Assembly: GCA_018334675.1 (NCBI GenBank)
Contig: JAGXLL010000005.1
Location: 1 to 64,000 of the forward strand
DNA from: Bacteroidales bacterium
Lineage (GTDB): Bacteria > Bacteroidota > Bacteroidia > Bacteroidales > UBA12077
Length of the DNA stretch: 64,000 nucleotides
Reading direction: 5' to 3'
Of this stretch, positions 1,114 to 20,039 are shown piece by piece (the stretch's first letter is position 1; each line of letters begins with the position of its first letter). Under the pieces are notes generated by a model that was not told the DNA's origin, made no database searches, and saw only the letters and a program-made list of their open reading frames with translations. Made by a program: the position numbers and the translations under genes.

Positions 1114-1944
1114 TTACCAGCCGCCGCCGGCGCCACCGCCTCCAAAGCCGCCACCGCCGAAGCCACCGAAGCCACCTCCGCCTCCCATTCCGCCGGAGAA
1201 GCCTCCGGAACCGGAGCTAAAATTGCTAAAGCTTCCATGCTGGCGGTGTGAGGCGGCACCAAGCATCGTCAGGGCAGCCCAGAAGGGAACACCATGGCCC
1301 ATCGAATAGTGACGGGCTCTTCTGATGCGGCCGACCACGGCAAAGATGATCACCAACAGGAAAAGCAGACCGATGGGATAGGGTGCCTGAGACTCCTTGC
1401 TGCCCCCTACCTTCTTGTTGTATTGTTCGGCGGTATATTCGCCCCGTGTCAGGTCAAAAAGCACAGTGGTGGCCTGCTCCAGGCCTTTATAATAATTGCC
1501 CTGGCGGAACAGGGGCAATATTTCATTGTCGACTATCTGCTGAGCCGTAGCATCGGGCACCGCGCCTTCCAGGCCATATCCGGTTGCGATAAAGACCCGC
1601 TGGTTTTCGGGACTCACCAGAATAAGGATACCATTGTCTTTTCCCTCCTGGCCAACGCCCCATTCATGAGCCAATCTCACCGCATAATCGGAGATTGCGT
1701 ACCCCCGCAGATCATTCAGGGTAACCACTGCAATCTGGGTGCTTGTTTCCCGGTTGAAACGCACCAGCTTTTGCTCGAGCTGGCTTTGTTCGGATGGGCT
1801 CAGTACTTCCGCAAAATCATTGACGATCTGCGGCGGCTGTGGGCGCTCAGGAAAATCCTCCACCTGAGCCATAGCAGGTCCTATCAACAGCAGCATCCAG
1901 ACTAACAGGAAAAATCTATATAACTTGGTTTTCATGGTTGTCAT
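1114..1944 (-). CDS. TPM domain (YgcG family) protein with signal peptide, TM helix and Gly-rich C-terminus
   Basis: FPERPQPPQIVNDFAEVLSPSEQSQLEQKLVRFNRETSTQIAVVTLNDLRGYAISDYAVRLAHEWGVGQEGKDNGILILVSPENQRVFIATGYGLEG is characteristic of the TPM family; C-term GGFSGGMGGGGGFGGFGGGGFGGGGAGGGW. Confidence 0.88.
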   Translation of the reverse strand: MTTMKTKLYRFFLLVWMLLLIGPAMAQVEDFPERPQPPQIVNDFAEVLSPSEQSQLEQKLVRFNRETSTQIAVVTLNDLRGYAISDYAVRLAHEWGVGQEGKDNGILILVSPENQRVFIATGYGLEGAVPDATAQQIVDNEILPLFRQGNYYKGLEQATTVLFDLTRGEYTAEQYNKKVGGSKESQAPYPIGLLFLLVIIFAVVGRIRRARHYSMGHGVPFWAALTMLGAASHRQHGSFSNFSSGSGGFSGGMGGGGGFGGFGGGGFGGGGAGGGW

Positions 1945-2387
1945 TTTTCCTCCTTTCCAAAGGAAATTTCATTCGATAATTCATTCACATCGTCTGACTG
2001 ATAGGGGAAGTGATCCTTCAGGGCCTCTCCGGCCATGCGGATGCCTTTGGCCAGCCCGTCAGCAAAGCGGTTTTCCTTAAAATGCTCCTGCACCACATCC
2101 CGTATCTCATCCCAGAAATCCTCGGATGTGACGGCGTTGATGCCTGCATCGCCCAGAATGGCGAATTTCCGATCCTCGACAGCCAGATAAAAGAGTACCC
2201 CATTGCGCTTTTCGGTTTTGTGCATCTTCAGTTTGCTGAAAATATAAGCGGCCCGGTCCAGGACATTGATCTTGCACTTCTTCTCCACATGCAGGCGGAT
2301 CTCACCTGAGGTATTCAGCTCCGCATCTTTGATGGCGTCAGTGATCTGCTTCTTCTGCTGTTCGGTAAAAAACTTGGATGGTTTCAT
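1941..2387 (-). CDS. TPM domain protein
   Basis: QKKQITDAIKDAELNTSGEIRLHVEKKCK...RNGVLFYLAVEDRKFAILGDAGINAVTSEDFWDEIRD; overlaps the next TPM gene by 4 nt. Confidence 0.85.
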   Translation of the reverse strand: MKPSKFFTEQQKKQITDAIKDAELNTSGEIRLHVEKKCKINVLDRAAYIFSKLKMHKTEKRNGVLFYLAVEDRKFAILGDAGINAVTSEDFWDEIRDVVQEHFKENRFADGLAKGIRMAGEALKDHFPYQSDDVNELSNEISFGKEEK

Positions 2388-2389
2388 AG

Positions 2390-2998
2390 TTAAAACTCCA
2401 CGTTTGGTGCTTCCTCGGCGCCTTCATCCGCTTCAAAATAGGCCTTCTCATCAAAGTCGAACAGGTTGGCATAGAGCTTCTGGGGAAACTGGTTCACATA
2501 AGTATTGTAAGAACGGGCCGCTTCATTGAATCGCCGGCGTTCCACGCTGATCCGGTTCTCGGTTCCCTCCAGCTGGGCCTGCAGTTGCTTAAAATTCTCA
2601 TTGGCCTTTAACTGGGGATAGCGTTCCACCACCACCATCAAACGTGAAAGAGCGGAACTCAGGGCACTTTGATTTTGCTGGAATTGCTGAAGCTTTTCAG
2701 GCGAAAGGTTCTCAGCATTGATGTTGGTTGAAGTGGCTTTGGAACGGGCCTCGATAACTCTTTGAAGGGTTTCCTGCTCAAAGTCGGCATAGCCCTTAAC
2801 CGTGTTCACCAGGTTGGGGATCAGGTCGGCCCTGCGTTGATAAACATTCTCCACGTTGGACCATTGAGCTTCTACGTTTTGTTCCATTTGCACCATCTTG
2901 TTATAGGTATTTTTAACCGAACCATACAAGATGAGTGCAATGATAACGATCACGCCTATGACGATCCAGGATTTTTTTATTTTCATGTTATTTAACAT
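2390..2998 (-). CDS. lemA: LemA family protein
   Basis: NTYNKMVQMEQNVEAQWSNVENVYQRRADLIPNLVNTVKGYADFEQETLQRVIEARSKA, LemA signature. Confidence 0.92.
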   Translation of the reverse strand: MLNNMKIKKSWIVIGVIVIIALILYGSVKNTYNKMVQMEQNVEAQWSNVENVYQRRADLIPNLVNTVKGYADFEQETLQRVIEARSKATSTNINAENLSPEKLQQFQQNQSALSSALSRLMVVVERYPQLKANENFKQLQAQLEGTENRISVERRRFNEAARSYNTYVNQFPQKLYANLFDFDEKAYFEADEGAEEAPNVEF

Positions 2999-3155: not shown

Positions 3156-5186
3156 ATGAGAAAACCCACGGTTATGACACGAGAAGAATTCCAAAAGGCG
3201 GTTCTGGAAGGTATCCCCTATGAATTGCCGGAACACAAGCCGTACGACAGAAATATCAATCATGCCCCCAGGCGCAAAGATCTACTCACTAAGGAACAAA
3301 AGCGTCTGGCGCTGAAGAATGCCCTTCGCTATTTTGACAAGAAGCATCATGCGGTGCTGGCTCCGGAATTTGCCGAAGAGCTTCGCGAATACGGCAGGAT
3401 CTATATGCATCGTTTCAGGCCCGATTATGAGATCAAGGCCCGCACGATCGATGATTTTCCGCATCGATCCAGGCATGCAGCAGCCATCATGCTGATGCTG
3501 AGCAACAACCTGGACAAGGCAGTGGCTCAGCATCCCCACGAACTGATCACATATGGTGGGAACGGAGCGGTTTTCCAGAACTGGGCACAATACCGGCTGA
3601 CCATGAAATACCTGGCGGAGATGACCGATGAGCAGACGCTGGTATTGTATTCGGGCCATCCGATGGGTCTTTTCCCCTCCCACAAAGAAGCCCCGCGGGT
3701 GGTTGTCACCAATGGCATGGTGATTCCCAACTATTCAAGCAAGCAAGAATATGAAAAATTCAATGCGCTGGGTGTTTCCCAATACGGGCAGATGACAGCC
3801 GGATCTTTTATGTATATTGGGCCACAGGGCATTGTTCATGGTACCACCATCACGGTGCTGAATGCAGGAAGAAGAACCCTCAAGCCCGGGGAGACCGATC
3901 TCTCAGGCAAAGTATATGTCACCTCAGGCCTGGGCGGTATGTCGGGTGCCCAGCCCAAGGCAACGGTTATTGCAGGAGGCATCTGCGTGGTGGCAGAAGT
4001 CAACCCAAAGGCCAGTCACAAAAGGTATCAGCAGGGCTGGGTAGATGAGATCTATGAAGACCTTGGCCAGTTGGTTTACCGATTAAGGGAAGCCATCGAA
4101 AACAAGGAAGCCGTTTCGATCGCCTATCAGGGCAATGTGGTAGATCTTTGGGAGAGGCTTGTTGATGAAGAAATTCATATTGATATGGGTTCGGATCAAA
4201 CGTCCCTGCACAATCCTTATTCAGGGGGGTATTATCCGGCCGGACTAAGCCTGGAGGAGGCAGACCGTATGATGACCGAAGAACCGGAGAAATTCAGGGA
4301 TAAGGTACACCAGTCGCTCAAGCGTCAGGTCCATGCCATCAACAAAATGGTCAACCGCGGCATGTTTTTCTGGGATTACGGCAATGCCTTCCTGCTGGAA
4401 TCCAGCCGGGCGGGGGCCGACATCCTCAAGGAGGATGGCTCATTCAAGTACCCATCCTACGTGGAATCGATCATGGGGCCTCTTTTCTTTGACTACGGGT
4501 TTGGCCCGTTCCGGTGGGTATGCACCTCCAACGATCCGAAAGACCTGGAAGTAAGTGATAAGATCGCGGCCGATGTGATGGAACACTTGGCAGAAGAGGC
4601 TCCACATGAGATACGGGGTCAGATGGAAGACAACATCCACTGGATCAAGGAAGCGGGTAATAATAACCTGGTTGTGGGCTCCCAGGCCCGCATCCTCTAT
4701 ACCGATTCGGAAGGCAGGATTGAAATAGCCCGGGCCTTCAACCAGGCCATCCGGGAGGGTAAGATCTCTGCCCCTATTGTACTGGGCAGGGACCATCATG
4801 ATGTATCGGGCACGGACAGTCCTTACCGGGAGACGGCCAACATATATGACGGATCCAAATATACCGCTGACATGGCGGTACAAAACGTTATCGGCGATTC
4901 CTTCCGGGGTGCCACCTGGGTATCCCTTCACAACGGGGGAGGCGTTGGATGGGGAGAGGTCATCAACGGCGGGTTCGGTATGGTACTGGATGGCACCGAA
5001 GAAGCCGACAAGCGGCTGGAGATGATGCTTTACTGGGATGTGAACAACGGCATAGCAAGAAGAAGCTGGGCACGCAATGAAGGGGCCATCTCTGCCCTCA
5101 AGCGGGAGATGGAAAAAACGCCCAACCTGAAGGTAACCCTGCCCAACATCGCAGATGATGAGGTGGTTGAGGATAATATAGGCTGA
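3156..5186 (+). CDS. hutU: Urocanate hydratase (long form)
   Basis: 676 aa; PHELITYGGNGAVFQNWAQYRLTMKYLAEMTDEQTLVLYSGHPMGLFPSHKEAPRVVVTNGMVIPNY and LGRDHHDVSGTDSPYRETANIYDGSKYTADMAVQN typical of urocanase. Confidence 0.93.
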   Translation: MRKPTVMTREEFQKAVLEGIPYELPEHKPYDRNINHAPRRKDLLTKEQKRLALKNALRYFDKKHHAVLAPEFAEELREYGRIYMHRFRPDYEIKARTIDDFPHRSRHAAAIMLMLSNNLDKAVAQHPHELITYGGNGAVFQNWAQYRLTMKYLAEMTDEQTLVLYSGHPMGLFPSHKEAPRVVVTNGMVIPNYSSKQEYEKFNALGVSQYGQMTAGSFMYIGPQGIVHGTTITVLNAGRRTLKPGETDLSGKVYVTSGLGGMSGAQPKATVIAGGICVVAEVNPKASHKRYQQGWVDEIYEDLGQLVYRLREAIENKEAVSIAYQGNVVDLWERLVDEEIHIDMGSDQTSLHNPYSGGYYPAGLSLEEADRMMTEEPEKFRDKVHQSLKRQVHAINKMVNRGMFFWDYGNAFLLESSRAGADILKEDGSFKYPSYVESIMGPLFFDYGFGPFRWVCTSNDPKDLEVSDKIAADVMEHLAEEAPHEIRGQMEDNIHWIKEAGNNNLVVGSQARILYTDSEGRIEIARAFNQAIREGKISAPIVLGRDHHDVSGTDSPYRETANIYDGSKYTADMAVQNVIGDSFRGATWVSLHNGGGVGWGEVINGGFGMVLDGTEEADKRLEMMLYWDVNNGIARRSWARNEGAISALKREMEKTPNLKVTLPNIADDEVVEDNIG

Positions 5187-13377: not shown

Positions 13378-16224
13378 TTATTTGATTAGTTCATAGCCTT
13401 TTGTTTCGCCTTTTTTGATGGCCGGTATGCCTTCTTCCATCCATACGGGAGCGGGTTGATCCTTCAGGTAATGATCGAAGAACTGTTTCATCCGGATGCT
13501 TAGATCGCGGCAATTGGGGCTCTTGGCTCTTTCATTATGAGGAGCATCGTTATAATTGAGCATCCATACAGGTTTGTCCAGTCTCCGAAGGGCCACGAAA
13601 TACTCGATCCCCTGGTACCAGGGCACAGCTCCGTCACCGTCGTTGTGGCGCATCAGAAGAGGTGTATTGACCCGGGGAGCATAGAAAAGCGGGGAGTTTT
13701 GGATGTAGTGAAGGGGTTTCTCCCAGAGGGTTCCGCCAATTCGGCTTTGCGACTCTTCATACTGAAACATGCGGCTCATGCCCGAACCCCATCTTATACC
13801 ACCATAGGCACTGGTCATGTTCGAGACAGGTGCACCTGCAGAGGCAGCAGCATACATATCGGTCATGGTGATGATATGGGCCACCTGGTATCCGCCCCAG
13901 CTCTGTCCCTGTAGGCCTATCCGCTGCTTATCGATGTAATCCCGGGTGTTGATCAGCGAAAGGGTTCCGCTGGTCACATACTCATGGGCACTTTCACCGG
14001 GATAACCGATGTCGTAGCGGATGTTGGGAACAAACACCAGGTAACCGTTACTCACGTAAAAAGTGCGGTTAATCACAGAACGGCTGGGCTTGGGAACATG
14101 ATGTCGGTGCAGCCCGTCGGAACTGAGCCTGTAGAAATAAACCATCATGGGATATTTTTTATCGGGATCGAAATTCTCCGGTTTATACAACAGTCCTTCC
14201 GCTTCCCGGCCGTTGGGGGCGGTCCAGTGAACCAGCTCTGCATCGCCCCATATATATTTATCCTGCTGAGGATTGGCATGGGAGATCTGGCGGGCATCAT
14301 CAAAATCCGCTTTGCTGTACCAAACATCAGAATATTCCTCGAAGGTGGATTTTCTCCAGATAAAACGATCCGCATCCTCTGCCTTCTCCGGTTCATAGAA
14401 ATAGCAATCGTCCATCAGCAGCTGCCGGGGTTTTCTTTTGCCCTGGATATCCAAAGTATAGAATCCCATAGCCTTGCTATCCTCATCAAAAGCTCTCAGA
14501 AGCAGGTCTTCATCGGTGGAGATATATTGGGCCTCTTCATCCAGTTTCACGTATCGCATCCGGTAGTGGTTGTCGCGCCCCAGCCTGCCGGTGAGGTTCT
14601 GCGGTTCTTGTTCACCGGTGGGATCGATCTTCCAGATGTCATACCGGTCGTATACCAGAAAATACTCATCATCACCAGTCCAGCCGGCATAATAGTATGG
14701 ATTGGGCTCCTGGGGATAATCGTGATCCTCATCATAGAAGTTCACATCCAGCGTGCCGGTAAGGTTGCGGGTGGTGTTGCCGGCGATGTCATGGGCATAC
14801 CAGTTGCTGTCGGCATAAGCATACCAGAAGAAATATTTTCCGTTGGAAGAAATATCCATATGCGACTGTATCTCCTTCTTGAACAATTCCCTTTCGCCGG
14901 TCTTCACATCCACCAGGTAAACATCCCTGTATGGAGGCATCTCCCAGGACATACGTTTCATATAAGGCTGCCGGTTGGTACCTATGGCCACATCCCCATT
15001 CCCTTCCAGGACGGGTTCCACTTCCCGTACCGTTGTGTCGGCCAACTGTACCACTTTGTCCTGATCGATATGATAGACTGCCAGATATGTGCGCTTTTTC
15101 TCTTCCTCCAGGTTCTCGAGCTGCTGAGGCTGAAGGAGCTTATCTTTCCAGTTCCAGACGTCTACCTCGACCTTTTCCTCTTCCAGCAGGGTATCTTCAG
15201 GCTCCGGTTCGGGCCTGAGATCCGTACCGAAAAACAGGCGCTCATCATTGTCGGAGAAGTAGACTTTTCCATGCGCTCCCACGGTCCACTTTTCGGGTAT
15301 GGACTCGGTAAGGGTATCCACAACCCTTTGGGGGGTATTGGATTGACCGTCCCAGTGGTAAAGCCCATAGACTTTTGTTTTGATGGTATCGGGCGAATGG
15401 ATGAAAGCCAACTGACGGCCCTGATGATCAGGCGTCAGCTTCTTGCTCAGCCCTTCTGCTTCAAGTATGGTGCGGGTTTTCATCTCCTCTGTATCAAATA
15501 CCCGGACGGCCGACTTCAGAAGGGTATCGTTCTGAAGCTGAACAAAAGTGACCATCTCGCCATTGTCCGAGATGGCGTATTCAGAAACATCCTCAAATCG
15601 AATGACTTCCTGTTTCACCGGGTTGGTAATCACCAGCTCAGTAGCCTCCGGAGCGGACTTGTCCAATTTCCCGCCGGAAGCCTTCGCTTCTTCTTCCGGT
15701 TCTCCCCCTTCTTCCTGCTTTTCCTCCTCTTCTTCAGAATCCTGGTCCTCTTCAAGGGGCTTTTCCAGCTGAAATACCATCCAGTTGGTACCTTTTTCGG
15801 GCACTGCAAAGGATTTAACCCGGCTGTACCGGATGACTAAATCATCCTCGAACACATAGACGCCTAAAGAATCTTTAGGAAGCTTCTTATCAGGAACCTC
15901 ATCCAGCTTCATCTGACGGACTGTATCCTGAAAAGGCTTGATAGCAAAAGCCATGTATTCGGATGTGGGTGCCAGTTTTGCCCGGGTGCCTCTGGGAAAA
16001 ACGTGTTTCTCCCTGCCGTTGGCCGACCACAGGGTCAGCCGGCCATCTCCCTTGTAGGGATTAACCTCATAAAACACCCAATCGCCGTTGTTGGATATTC
16101 CCTTATCTTCCAAATAATTCCATCCGTCATAGACAGAAAAATCCAGGGGTTTCTTTTCCTGCCCCTGGGAACAAAATATTGATGTACCGAAAATTAAAAC
16201 AATCAGCAAGGATTTTCTCAGCAT
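13378..16224 (-). CDS. Prolyl oligopeptidase family (S9) serine peptidase, secreted
   Basis: C-terminal catalytic domain QGQSWGGYQVAHIITMTDMYAAASAGAPVSN, NDGDGAVPW, NDAPHNE; signal peptide MLRKSLLIVLIFGTSIFCSQGQ supports start at 16224 rather than 16416. Confidence 0.9.
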   Translation of the reverse strand: MLRKSLLIVLIFGTSIFCSQGQEKKPLDFSVYDGWNYLEDKGISNNGDWVFYEVNPYKGDGRLTLWSANGREKHVFPRGTRAKLAPTSEYMAFAIKPFQDTVRQMKLDEVPDKKLPKDSLGVYVFEDDLVIRYSRVKSFAVPEKGTNWMVFQLEKPLEEDQDSEEEEEKQEEGGEPEEEAKASGGKLDKSAPEATELVITNPVKQEVIRFEDVSEYAISDNGEMVTFVQLQNDTLLKSAVRVFDTEEMKTRTILEAEGLSKKLTPDHQGRQLAFIHSPDTIKTKVYGLYHWDGQSNTPQRVVDTLTESIPEKWTVGAHGKVYFSDNDERLFFGTDLRPEPEPEDTLLEEEKVEVDVWNWKDKLLQPQQLENLEEEKKRTYLAVYHIDQDKVVQLADTTVREVEPVLEGNGDVAIGTNRQPYMKRMSWEMPPYRDVYLVDVKTGERELFKKEIQSHMDISSNGKYFFWYAYADSNWYAHDIAGNTTRNLTGTLDVNFYDEDHDYPQEPNPYYYAGWTGDDEYFLVYDRYDIWKIDPTGEQEPQNLTGRLGRDNHYRMRYVKLDEEAQYISTDEDLLLRAFDEDSKAMGFYTLDIQGKRKPRQLLMDDCYFYEPEKAEDADRFIWRKSTFEEYSDVWYSKADFDDARQISHANPQQDKYIWGDAELVHWTAPNGREAEGLLYKPENFDPDKKYPMMVYFYRLSSDGLHRHHVPKPSRSVINRTFYVSNGYLVFVPNIRYDIGYPGESAHEYVTSGTLSLINTRDYIDKQRIGLQGQSWGGYQVAHIITMTDMYAAASAGAPVSNMTSAYGGIRWGSGMSRMFQYEESQSRIGGTLWEKPLHYIQNSPLFYAPRVNTPLLMRHNDGDGAVPWYQGIEYFVALRRLDKPVWMLNYNDAPHNERAKSPNCRDLSIRMKQFFDHYLKDQPAPVWMEEGIPAIKKGETKGYELIK

Positions 16225-16414
16225 GTTGGCAAATTTTAGGGTTAGTAGAAAATAACATTGAAAATAATAACAAAATACGGAACAAACAATTTTTTTATGA
16301 TGAAAGGGCAAATTTAAAGCCCTTTCAATGAAATTGTGCTTATCCGGCAGTAGGTTAAGGAGAGCTGCGGATTTTTTTATATTTTTAAACCGTATAATAT
16401 AAAACACCAAGCTC

Positions 16415-17461
16415 ATGGCCGATACAATACAAACAGGACTCAGCTCCTTCGGACTATCAGGACGCGTTTTTCATGCTCCCTTTCTGGAAGCGCATCCGGG
16501 TTTTCATCTGACAAAGGTATGGGAGCGGACCAAGAACCTCTCCACCCGGCATTATCCAGAGGCTGAGATCGTGCGCAGCTATGAAGAGATGCTGAAGGAC
16601 GATGATTTGGAGCTTATTATAGTGAATACTCCTGACGGCACCCATTATGATTTCTGCAAAAAAGCTTTACAGGCCGGCAAGCATGTTCTGGTGGAAAAGC
16701 CTTTCACGCTGACCACCAGGGAAGGCATTGAGCTGACAGGACTGGCGCGAAAAAAAAGGAGGCTGCTGGCGGTATTTCAGAACCGCCGGTGGGATGGAGA
16801 TTTCATGACAGTGCGCCGGTTGATTGATCAGGGGGTATTGGGCAGGCTGGTAGAGTTTGAAGCCCATTTCGACCGTTTCAAGAACCGGGTGGACCCCGGC
16901 AAGTGGCGTGAGCAGCCTGGCCCGGGCACAGGCAATATCTATGATCTGGGGGCCCATATGATTGATCAGGCCCTGGTGCTTTTCGGATGGCCCGACTCGG
17001 TAACGGCAGATCTGCGTATACAGCGAAGCGAAGGCAAAGTGAATGACTACTTCAACATTCGGCTTAACCACAATGAAGTGGTAGTTACCGTGAAAGGGGG
17101 ATTTCTGGTACGCGAGGCCGGTCCGAGATATATCCTTCATGGTACCGAGGGATCATTCATCAAATACGGCATCGATCCTCAGGAAGAAGCCCTGCAGAAG
17201 GGACATCGCCCCGATGAAGCCGGCTGGGGCCAGGAGGAAGAAGGGGACTGGGGCACCTTGAACACACAAATCCATGACCTGCATTACCGGGGCAAGATAG
17301 AGACCCTGCCCGGCAATTACATGGGCTTCTTTGAAAACCTGCATGATGCCATTCGTCATGGCAAGAAGCTGGCTGTTCCCGCCGAGGAGGGCCTGAATGT
17401 GATCCGCATCATCGAGGCCGCCAAGGAGAGCAGCGAGGGCAACCGGGTGGTTCAAATGTAA
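16415..17461 (+). CDS. Gfo/Idh/MocA family oxidoreductase
   Basis: QTGLSSFGLSGRVFHAPFLEAHPGFHLTKVWER; IIVNTPDGTHYDFCKKALQAGKHVLVEKPF. Confidence 0.93.
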   Translation: MADTIQTGLSSFGLSGRVFHAPFLEAHPGFHLTKVWERTKNLSTRHYPEAEIVRSYEEMLKDDDLELIIVNTPDGTHYDFCKKALQAGKHVLVEKPFTLTTREGIELTGLARKKRRLLAVFQNRRWDGDFMTVRRLIDQGVLGRLVEFEAHFDRFKNRVDPGKWREQPGPGTGNIYDLGAHMIDQALVLFGWPDSVTADLRIQRSEGKVNDYFNIRLNHNEVVVTVKGGFLVREAGPRYILHGTEGSFIKYGIDPQEEALQKGHRPDEAGWGQEEEGDWGTLNTQIHDLHYRGKIETLPGNYMGFFENLHDAIRHGKKLAVPAEEGLNVIRIIEAAKESSEGNRVVQM

Positions 17462-17479: not shown

Positions 17480-17596
17480 TCATTCATCCCTTAAAGTATC
17501 TACCGGGTTTCTCACCGATGCCAAATAGGAGGGAATGCTTACGGTGGCTAGAGCGACCATCAAAGCAAAAGCCAATGCTATGTTCCATGCCAGCGC
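17480..17596 (-). pseudogene. C-terminal remnant of an ABC transporter permease (MacB/FtsX type)
   Basis: Minus strand reads ALAWNIALAFALMVALATVSIPSYLASVRNPVDTLRDE*, matching the usual last TM helix and NPV..LR.E tail of FtsX permeases; no upstream permease coding remains. Confidence 0.78.
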
Positions 17597-18816
17597 CTAA
17601 GTCTCTGCTGGGCGTGCCGGAGTTCCTTTTCCCCTTTATCGGTCAGGCTCAGCATTTGTCCATCCTGTGGATCTTCCCTCAGATATCCATCTCCAAAGAG
17701 TTGCTCTACGGTTTGGGCGGCTGTCTTTTTAGCTGCTGAGCTATCAGCCAGGCCAAAAGCTTGCAGCTGGGGGATCTGCTCGAAGTCGACTGAAACAACG
17801 GCTTCCTGATACAGTTGGTCGCGGGTGCGGATGCGACCGCGGTCGATCTCGGAGAGGAACCAGCGGATCATATGCCGCTGGCGGTGTTTCTCGAAAAACT
17901 GAAAGCCATAGCCCGAGAGGTCTACCTTGCCTTCCTTTTGTTGTTTGATCATATCCACCAGCAGGTCCCAGGCCCCTTTAAGGATCATCAGGGCGATGAT
18001 CAGACCAACGATCAGATCAAGCACGGGCAGACCCAGCCAGGAAGCCAGGAAGCTGACACCCACCCCACCTGCCACCAGCAGGTGGTTTCTGGAATCCACG
18101 GATTGGGCCACGACCGGCATGGACCCGGCTGCTACTCCGGTATATCGCTGATAAACCCACAAAATAGCTGACAAAGCTGCTGATACAGCTACCGCAACAA
18201 ATGCCAGCCCGTCGGGCTGCATCACCGATCCTTCTATAAAACGGGTTACCGACTCCCAAAGGGCATATCCACCGGTTGCCACCATAAAAGCCAGCAACAT
18301 GAAACCGGCAATGTGTTCTTTGCCGGAGCGGATCCCCAGGTACACGATCACACTAGAGAGGGCATCCATGGCTGTATCCAGGGCATCATTGAGCAGGGCT
18401 ACCGACCCCGAAAGCATGGCTGCCGGAAACTTGATCAGGCTGAGGATCAGATGGGCAAGAAAAGTGATCTGGGATACGGCCTGGGGCTGCATCATCGATC
18501 TAAACTTGCTACCGGCCTTTTTCAACTCGGCCAGCATCTTCTCTGCTTCCCGACGGCCCTTCTCGGTTAGTTCCCAGGTATGATCGGCCTCATGATAAAC
18601 GACCCAGCCGGCTTTCTGCATGGCATGGAGGTTGGGTTTGAGGAAGGCGCCCATTCTGGCTTCCTTCAGGGCCACAGGGGTATAAAACATTCCGAACCGC
18701 CGGGCCAGAATACGAAAATGGTCGCCTATCTGCTCCAGGGTCCTGGCCCCGTCAATCAAAGCCGAAGCAATAGCCCAGCGCTGGCCGTGGTCGTGCTTTT
18801 GTTTTTTTGAAGTCAT
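17578..18816 (-). CDS. Cation diffusion facilitator (CDF)-type transporter with N- and C-terminal winged-helix-like extensions
   Basis: Central SGSVALLNDALDTAMDALSSVIVYLGIRSG (CDF TM2) and AQSVDSRNHLLVAGGVGVS (TM5); N-term HAMQKAGWVVYHEADHTWELTEKGRREAEKML and C-term LFGDGYLREDPQDGQMLSLTDKGEKEL resemble winged-helix wings. Confidence 0.78.
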   Translation of the reverse strand: MTSKKQKHDHGQRWAIASALIDGARTLEQIGDHFRILARRFGMFYTPVALKEARMGAFLKPNLHAMQKAGWVVYHEADHTWELTEKGRREAEKMLAELKKAGSKFRSMMQPQAVSQITFLAHLILSLIKFPAAMLSGSVALLNDALDTAMDALSSVIVYLGIRSGKEHIAGFMLLAFMVATGGYALWESVTRFIEGSVMQPDGLAFVAVAVSAALSAILWVYQRYTGVAAGSMPVVAQSVDSRNHLLVAGGVGVSFLASWLGLPVLDLIVGLIIALMILKGAWDLLVDMIKQQKEGKVDLSGYGFQFFEKHRQRHMIRWFLSEIDRGRIRTRDQLYQEAVVSVDFEQIPQLQAFGLADSSAAKKTAAQTVEQLFGDGYLREDPQDGQMLSLTDKGEKELRHAQQRLRRWHGT

Positions 18817-19169
18817 GATTTGAATATGCAGTTATATGAGCCTCCTGATCGACAATAATCAACAAGCGCTCATTCAAATGTACAAAATTAATTGGATCCC
18901 TGTTGGATCCTATCAACCCTTAGTCTTATGAAAATCCCATATCCAACCATGCTATATCCTATTTAGAATGATTTAAACCAGTAGATTATATCAAGCACTC
19001 TTCTTATAACTCTGATTATTTGATAAATGGAAAATAAACAATCAGGTTTGTAGGGTGCGATTTGAATGAAGTTTAGGTAAATAAGATCAGGATAAAAAGG
19101 AATTACACCCACGAATAGGACGGATGACAGATGCAACACACTGATTCACAGAGAACAAGGCGGACGCTG

Positions 19170-20039
19170 TTATTCCCTGAGAAAATGGTTGTTCTTCAAA
19201 ATTTTCTCAAGTTTAGAAAGGCTGTCGCGCTTAATCTGACGGATCCGTTCTGAGGACATTTCAAGTTTCAGGGCGATACGTTGCAGGGAACAGATGGGGG
19301 TACCATTCAGTCCGAAAGACATGGTCAACACCTCTGCCTCACGGGTAGAAAGTTTTTCCAGGGCTCTTTGTACATTGATCGCTAAAGACTCCCGGATCAG
19401 GTGATCATCGGGTGAAGCTGTATCTCCGGCTTGAATCAAATCATAAAGGCCTGCTCCGTGATGCTCGGCATTATCCTGGACGAGGGGTTTATCGAAGGAA
19501 ATATGCGGACCCTTAATGTAATTGGCCTTTTTTATCTTATCATCAGACAGTTGCAGATGTTGAGCTATCTCGTCCTCGGTAGGTTCGCGCTCATATTCCT
19601 GCTCGAGATAAGGGATGGCTTTGCTGATTTTGTGGATCGAAGCCACCTGATTCATTGGCAGGCGGATCATCCGGGTTTGCTCGGAGATGGCCTGAAGGAT
19701 GGCCTGCCGGATCCACCAGACGGCATAGGAAATAAACTTGAAGCCTTTGGTCTGATCAAACTTCCTGGCGGCTTTCACCAGGCCCAGGTTACCTTCATTA
19801 ATAAGATCTGCCAGGGACAATCCCTTAAACTGATACTGTTTGGCCACCGAGATGACAAAACGCAGGTTAGCGGCTACCAAAGTGCTAAGAGCTTCTTCAT
19901 CACCTTTTTTGATGCGAATAGACAATTCCACTTCCTCTTCAGCAGTGACCAGCGCGTATTTGCTAATTTCCCTGAAATAGTGTCCGAGAGACTCATCTGT
20001 TCGCGGGGTCAGCTGTTTGGTAATGGTTAATTGTCGCAT
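19170..20039 (-). CDS. RNA polymerase sigma-70 factor (RpoD/SigA-like), probably a paralogue
   Basis: NLRFVISVAKQYQFKGLSLADLINEGNLGLVKAARKFDQTKGFKFISYAVWWIRQAILQAISEQTRMIRLP; 289 aa like Bacteroidetes SigA but region 4 divergent. Confidence 0.92.
   Translation of the reverse strand: MRQLTITKQLTPRTDESLGHYFREISKYALVTAEEEVELSIRIKKGDEEALSTLVAANLRFVISVAKQYQFKGLSLADLINEGNLGLVKAARKFDQTKGFKFISYAVWWIRQAILQAISEQTRMIRLPMNQVASIHKISKAIPYLEQEYEREPTEDEIAQHLQLSDDKIKKANYIKGPHISFDKPLVQDNAEHHGAGLYDLIQAGDTASPDDHLIRESLAINVQRALEKLSTREAEVLTMSFGLNGTPICSLQRIALKLEMSSERIRQIKRDSLSKLEKILKNNHFLRE

Follow-up and report, generated by a model that had tools for sequence, protein, structure and literature searches.

Is P0001, an open reading frame of 412 codons in the window (the whole 64,000-nucleotide stretch of Bacteroidales DNA that was analysed), a metal transporter, a regulator, or both in one polypeptide? 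An earlier note had read its product as a CDF-like membrane core with a winged-helix-like domain at each end and a swapped metal motif in TM5, and had proposed a membrane-tethered sensor in which metal occupancy or transport is read out by the winged helices. The gene lies on the minus strand, a point on which the note was silent. Its features, with the evidence that defines each, are as follows.

17578..18816, minus strand: whole ORF P0001, 412 aa, winged helix - CDF membrane core - winged helix (ORF, Pfam, AlphaFold)
18517..18795, minus strand: N-terminal winged-helix domain, about residues 8-100 (AlphaFold H-H-H-b-b-H; family profile; HTH_45 in homologue L171)
17932..18486, minus strand: six-helix CDF membrane core, residues 111-295 (Pfam PF01545, E 2e-21; Foldseek to YiiP/ZnT)
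18364..18378, minus strand: TM2 D147-x3-D151, the DxxxD half of putative site A (alignment; kept in 8/9 members)
18301..18339, minus strand: shortened TM2-TM3 segment, residues 160-172 (9/9 members versus 21 ordinary CDFs)
18082..18096, minus strand: TM5 D241-x3-H245 (DSRNH), the swapped half of putative site A (DxxxH in 8/9 members)
18016..18018, minus strand: TM6 Asp267, conserved in CDFs (invariant in 9/9 members and 21/21 ordinary CDFs)
17590..17901, minus strand: C-terminal winged-helix domain, about residues 306-409 (AlphaFold; hhalign to the N-domain family; Foldseek list non-significant)

A CDF core with exchanged TM5 ligands

The presence of a CDF-like core within the single 412-residue frame was confirmed: Pfam Cation_efflux matches P0001 over residues 117-290 only (E 2e-21) and was above cut-off in every member tested of the family described below. 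The six long helices of the AlphaFold model match the fold of YiiP and ZnT structures in Foldseek, and the family profile of the core matches YiiP/FieF (E 2e-13); on the NCBIfam CDF model TIGR01297, P0001 scores 3 bits below the cut-off.

In YiiP, site A is made up of D45, D49, H153 and D157, the TM2-TM3 loop holds site B, and site C belongs to the CTD (PMC6440370, PMC6465983). In our alignment D147 and D151 of TM2 (LLNDALDTAMDALSS) fall on D45 and D49, bearing out the DxxxD pair noticed earlier, and TM5 (VDSRNHL) places D241 and H245 where YiiP has H153 and D157, upholding the reading of DxxxH against HxxxD. The putative site-A set is thus three Asp and one His, as in YiiP, with the TM5 positions exchanged. 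DxxxD in TM2 together with DxxxH in TM5 is found in eight of the nine family proteins (the latter as DSRNH, DSRSH, DGRNH or DSHNH), so that DxxxH is kept in seven of the eight homologues of P0001. The exception, L169 (Chloroflexota genome G1302, 1474-2715, plus strand), combines GxxxD in TM2, where the first Asp is lost, with DxxxD in TM5 and so carries two changes in site A. TM5 of 21 ordinary CDFs in the same alignment reads NMRND in 20 and HxxxD in one (L022).

Mn-CDFs carry DxxxD in TM5 and Zn- and Fe/Zn-CDFs carry HxxxD, and characterised CDFs lose their activity when these positions are substituted (PMC1868760). As P0001 and seven homologues have neither HxxxD nor DxxxD, the latter occurring only in L169, the metal of P0001 is not readable from TM5. 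P0001 also fails the published CDF signature, which covers TM2 and the TM2-TM3 loop (PMC1868760); the full pattern is present in one of the nine members versus all seven ordinary CDFs tested. The TM2-TM3 segment is 13 residues long in all nine members versus 27 in the 21 ordinary CDFs, a shortening of 14 residues with which the region of YiiP site B is missing throughout the family.

The ends of the protein differ from those of ordinary CDFs as well. The ZT_dimer domain is usual, not universal, in CDFs. P0001 and its homologues had no Pfam match to it (PF16916), and an ordinary CDF paralogue of the same genome (L021) has one (E 3e-17); the suspected lack of the usual cytoplasmic domain is therefore real. 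The N-terminal extension is 107-125 residues in the family versus 7-32 in ordinary CDFs, the 79 residues of L167 resting on an unrefined start.

Both ends resemble winged helices

An AlphaFold model made with three sequences (pLDDT 75, pTM 0.66) runs in the order winged helix, six long helices, winged helix, with H-H-H-b-b-H at both ends, and the C-domain modelled alone has the same succession (pLDDT 80). In Pfam all winged-helix families fell below cut-off for the single sequence P0001, HTH_45 being above it in homologue L171, and a PDB search with the single P0001 sequence returned nothing informative. The family profile of the N-domain found DtxR first (E 6e-4) and IdeR, then AspA, RosR and MotA. 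For the C-domain the best PDB profile match (E 0.21) was not significant, nor was any Foldseek match (best E 0.04), MarR, DtxR, MntR, IdeR and AspA making up most of that list; by sequence and by Foldseek, the evidence for a winged helix is weaker here than for the N-domain. The profiles of the two domains match one another, however (hhalign probability 95, E 2.5e-8), which supports a shared fold and suggests that they arose by duplication. Taken together, these results bear out the proposal of winged-helix-like termini.

A rare and patchy family in four phyla

We searched the DNA of 84,980 species genomes with a pattern requiring D-A-x-D-x-x-x-D in TM2 and D-x-x-N-H in TM5 at the correct spacing. 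At least 119 loci fit, and among the matches listed were two full-length relatives, L156 of a Spirochaetales MAG (39.6% identity, query 6-407, E 3e-82) and L098 of a KSB1 MAG (32.7% identity, query 2-406, E 9e-77). Both MAGs have 'Zod' isolate names and may share one source study, and because the pattern demanded DxxNH, the DxxxH of these two is non-independent evidence. With a profile of these two and P0001, a single member came up among 230 Chloroflexota genomes. In a set of 84 genomes from the same Chloroflexota order the profile gave six, of which one was already known, and it gave no further member in 393 genomes of the phylum of L156 or 82 of that of L098. The six homologues found by profile were recovered with no demand for DxxNH, and their TM5 motifs are independent evidence.

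Eight full-length homologues from Spirochaetota, KSB1 and Chloroflexota MAGs thus share the layout of P0001; the nine proteins (405-418 aa) align end to end across four phyla, and the search for the three-part architecture in homologues that had been suggested found it in all eight, in three other phyla. Closer to home, whole-genome searches of the genus, order and phylum recovered only ordinary CDFs, matching over the membrane part, and none of the other sampled Bacteroidota genomes yielded a gene of the P0001 type. N- and C-domain queries in these genomes gave nothing real; weak N-domain matches in other genomes of the phylum were unrelated, and of those inspected two lay in other genes and one in a stop-ridden frame. 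Scans of genome contigs and viral contigs with P0001 alone found no relative, translated searches of plasmids found ordinary CDFs only, and pattern searches of viral contigs found nothing, a result of no evidential value since those patterns were chosen via an artificial alignment of P0001 with three scrambled copies. The family of winged-helix CDFs is rare and patchy.

In a maximum-likelihood tree of the membrane part the nine members group together with bootstrap 97, to the exclusion of 21 ordinary CDFs; outgroup sampling was narrow, and the tree therefore separates them from these 21 and not from all CDFs. The membrane core is the best conserved part of the protein, and dN is much lower than dS in each of the three parts, a comparison confined to close members and with dS saturated.

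A proposed exporter clade with replaced cytoplasmic parts

We favour, at about even chances, the view that P0001 belongs to a small, divergent, horizontally scattered clade of CDF exporters in which winged helices replace the dimerisation and regulatory domain. P0001 would then probably be a homodimer whose export of a divalent transition metal is proton-coupled, with D147, D151, D241 and H245 as putative site A, YiiP's three Asp and one His but with the two TM5 residues exchanged. Loss of the TM2-TM3 loop would have removed site B, and loss of ZT_dimer site C, leaving none of the cytoplasmic metal sites of ordinary CDFs. Their place would be taken by the two cytoplasmic winged helices, one of which may have arisen from the other; these most likely serve as a platform for regulation and, we infer, for dimerisation. 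This view is supported by the identification of the core as a CDF by Pfam, family profile and fold, by the retention of the four putative site-A ligands and the TM6 Asp, by the single architecture of nine proteins from four phyla, by the constraint seen in all three parts, and by the acidic recognition helix of most C-domains. In addition, the TM2-TM3 loop and the CTD, which are coupled in YiiP (PMC10617992), are absent together in all nine members. It is weakened by the TM5 DxxxH, which lies outside the published HxxxD and DxxxD groups at positions where substitutions inactivate CDFs (PMC1868760), by the loss of the first TM2 Asp in L169, and by the nearest solved relatives of the N-domain, which are DNA-binding repressors.

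Do the winged helices bind DNA?

Winged helices also have roles in dimerisation and protein contacts, and a transporter and regulator in one polypeptide is therefore one of two live readings. A neutral recognition helix is able to bind DNA; a consistently acidic one would be unusual. In P0001 the recognition helix carries a charge of +3 in the N-domain and 0 in the C-domain, and the N-domain as a whole is net +8. Across the family the charge of the N-domain helix ranges from -4 to +3, being neutral or acidic in most homologues, and that of the C-domain helix from -5 to +1, being net acidic in seven of nine (P0001, 0; L098, +1). Inverted repeats and promoter-like sites upstream of the P0001 gene gave no convincing operator signal, and a terminator-like excess at the locus lay mostly within the ORF.

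Comparison of the loci of the homologues uncovered no operon partner or gene context common to the family. CoA-transferase and radical-SAM genes are neighbours at four Chloroflexota loci. At L156, and at none of the other loci, a gene for an XRE-family regulator with a cupin domain (3264-3836, plus strand) runs up to or slightly into the start of the winged-helix CDF gene, so the two probably form one operon.

These data bear on the possibility that P0001 is a membrane-tethered one-component regulator, its CDF core sensing or moving metal and its winged helices, above all the N-terminal one, binding DNA, perhaps at its own promoter. The best matches of the N-domain to the metal repressors DtxR and IdeR, the positive charge of the P0001 N-domain and its recognition helix, and the expected cytoplasmic location of both ends all speak for it, and there is precedent in CadC, a membrane-bound winged-helix regulator that binds DNA while in the membrane (PMC5936718). 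Against it stand the acidic C-domain helices, the neutral or acidic N-domain helices of most homologues, and the lack of a convincing upstream operator and of shared gene context; moreover, the metal-binding residues of DtxR lie mostly outside the region matched by the N-domain. On balance we consider this somewhat unlikely. Of the original sensor/regulator interpretation, the CDF core, the TM5 swap, the winged-helix ends, the domain loss and the architecture have stood, and DNA binding or metal readout by the winged helices is so far unsupported; that the metal or transport state of a polytopic CDF transporter sets DNA binding by its own winged helices is, in our judgement, doubtful.

The protein could instead be a CDF descendant that has lost transport and uses its winged helices to act as a metal receptor or scaffold. 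The unusual TM5 ligands, the GxxxD and DxxxD of L169 and the missing sites B and C would fit such a role, but the four candidate ligands and the TM6 Asp are kept in eight of nine members and the membrane core, under purifying selection, is the best conserved part, making this improbable.

Apparent replacement of the greater part of a permease

All that is left of an FtsX/MacB-type permease in the window is its last 38 codons (17483-17596, minus strand), which overlap the final codons of the transporter gene in a different frame. In a same-genus genome (G003, L043 4226-6607) a complete permease of this type, 793 aa long, ends next to the same oxidoreductase gene, and in another (G002) the space between the oxidoreductase gene and the nitronate-monooxygenase-like gene that flank the locus is occupied by other genes. 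Because the gene end abuts a permease remnant and the permease is intact in a same-genus genome, acquisition looks horizontal; judging from these sequences, the transporter gene seems to have taken the place of most of a permease, and the last few residues of P0001 may come from permease DNA. Its GC content (0.55) is slightly above that of the listed neighbours (0.39-0.54).

Just upstream lies a gene for a sigma-70 factor with regions 1.2 to 4 (19170-20039, minus strand), which is absent at this place in G002. Between it and the transporter gene is a GGATCC-N5-GGATCC inverted repeat (18888-18916) that has a T-rich tail when read on the minus strand and could be a terminator, an attenuator or nothing. 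Elsewhere in the window, a 618-aa open frame (13984-15840, plus strand) antisense to an S9-type peptidase gene (13378-16416) is most likely a by-product of codon use.

The absence of the gene from other sampled Bacteroidota genomes and its abutment on a remnant could point to a fusion, assembly or annotation artefact confined to this locus, but the layout recurs in eight full-length homologues, assembled from members of three other phyla, which makes that next to impossible; the conserved three-part architecture removes the worry about the fusion, and with the artefact refuted for the protein only the gene's place in the contig could still be an assembly matter.

Relation to known systems and implications

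P0001 resembles YiiP/FieF and other CDF (SLC30-like, PF01545) metal exporters in its six-helix core, TM2 DxxxD, TM6 Asp and the number and kind of its putative site-A ligands; it differs from these in its TM5 DxxxH, its TM2-TM3 loop shorter by 14 residues, its lack of ZT_dimer and its winged helix at each end. CDF proteins without a CTD have been noted before (PMC6465983) and share a core devoid of the cytoplasmic dimerisation domain, whereas P0001 has a winged helix in place of the CTD and another before the core. With DtxR/IdeR, MarR and the PadR-like AspA it shares the predicted H-H-H-b-b-H fold and a weak N-domain profile match, but its ends are fused to a polytopic core and their recognition helices are not basic across the family. 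ToxR/CadC-type regulators would be alike in having a membrane-tethered winged helix, if that of P0001 binds DNA; they combine a single TM helix with a periplasmic sensor, whereas P0001 has a transporter core and two cytoplasmic domains. Searches of the open-access literature turned up no description of winged helices in a CDF.

Metal sensing and stabilisation of the dimer are the roles generally ascribed to the cytoplasmic domain and TM2-TM3 loop of CDFs. A natural clade that lacks both, has its TM5 ligands swapped and carries winged helices at its ends is a ready test of these roles and of what determines the choice of metal. With folds at both ends that are otherwise typical of gene regulators, the family may be controlled, or may control genes, in a way not described for the CDF class. 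Should the winged helices bind DNA, the protein would be a transporter in direct communication with a promoter.
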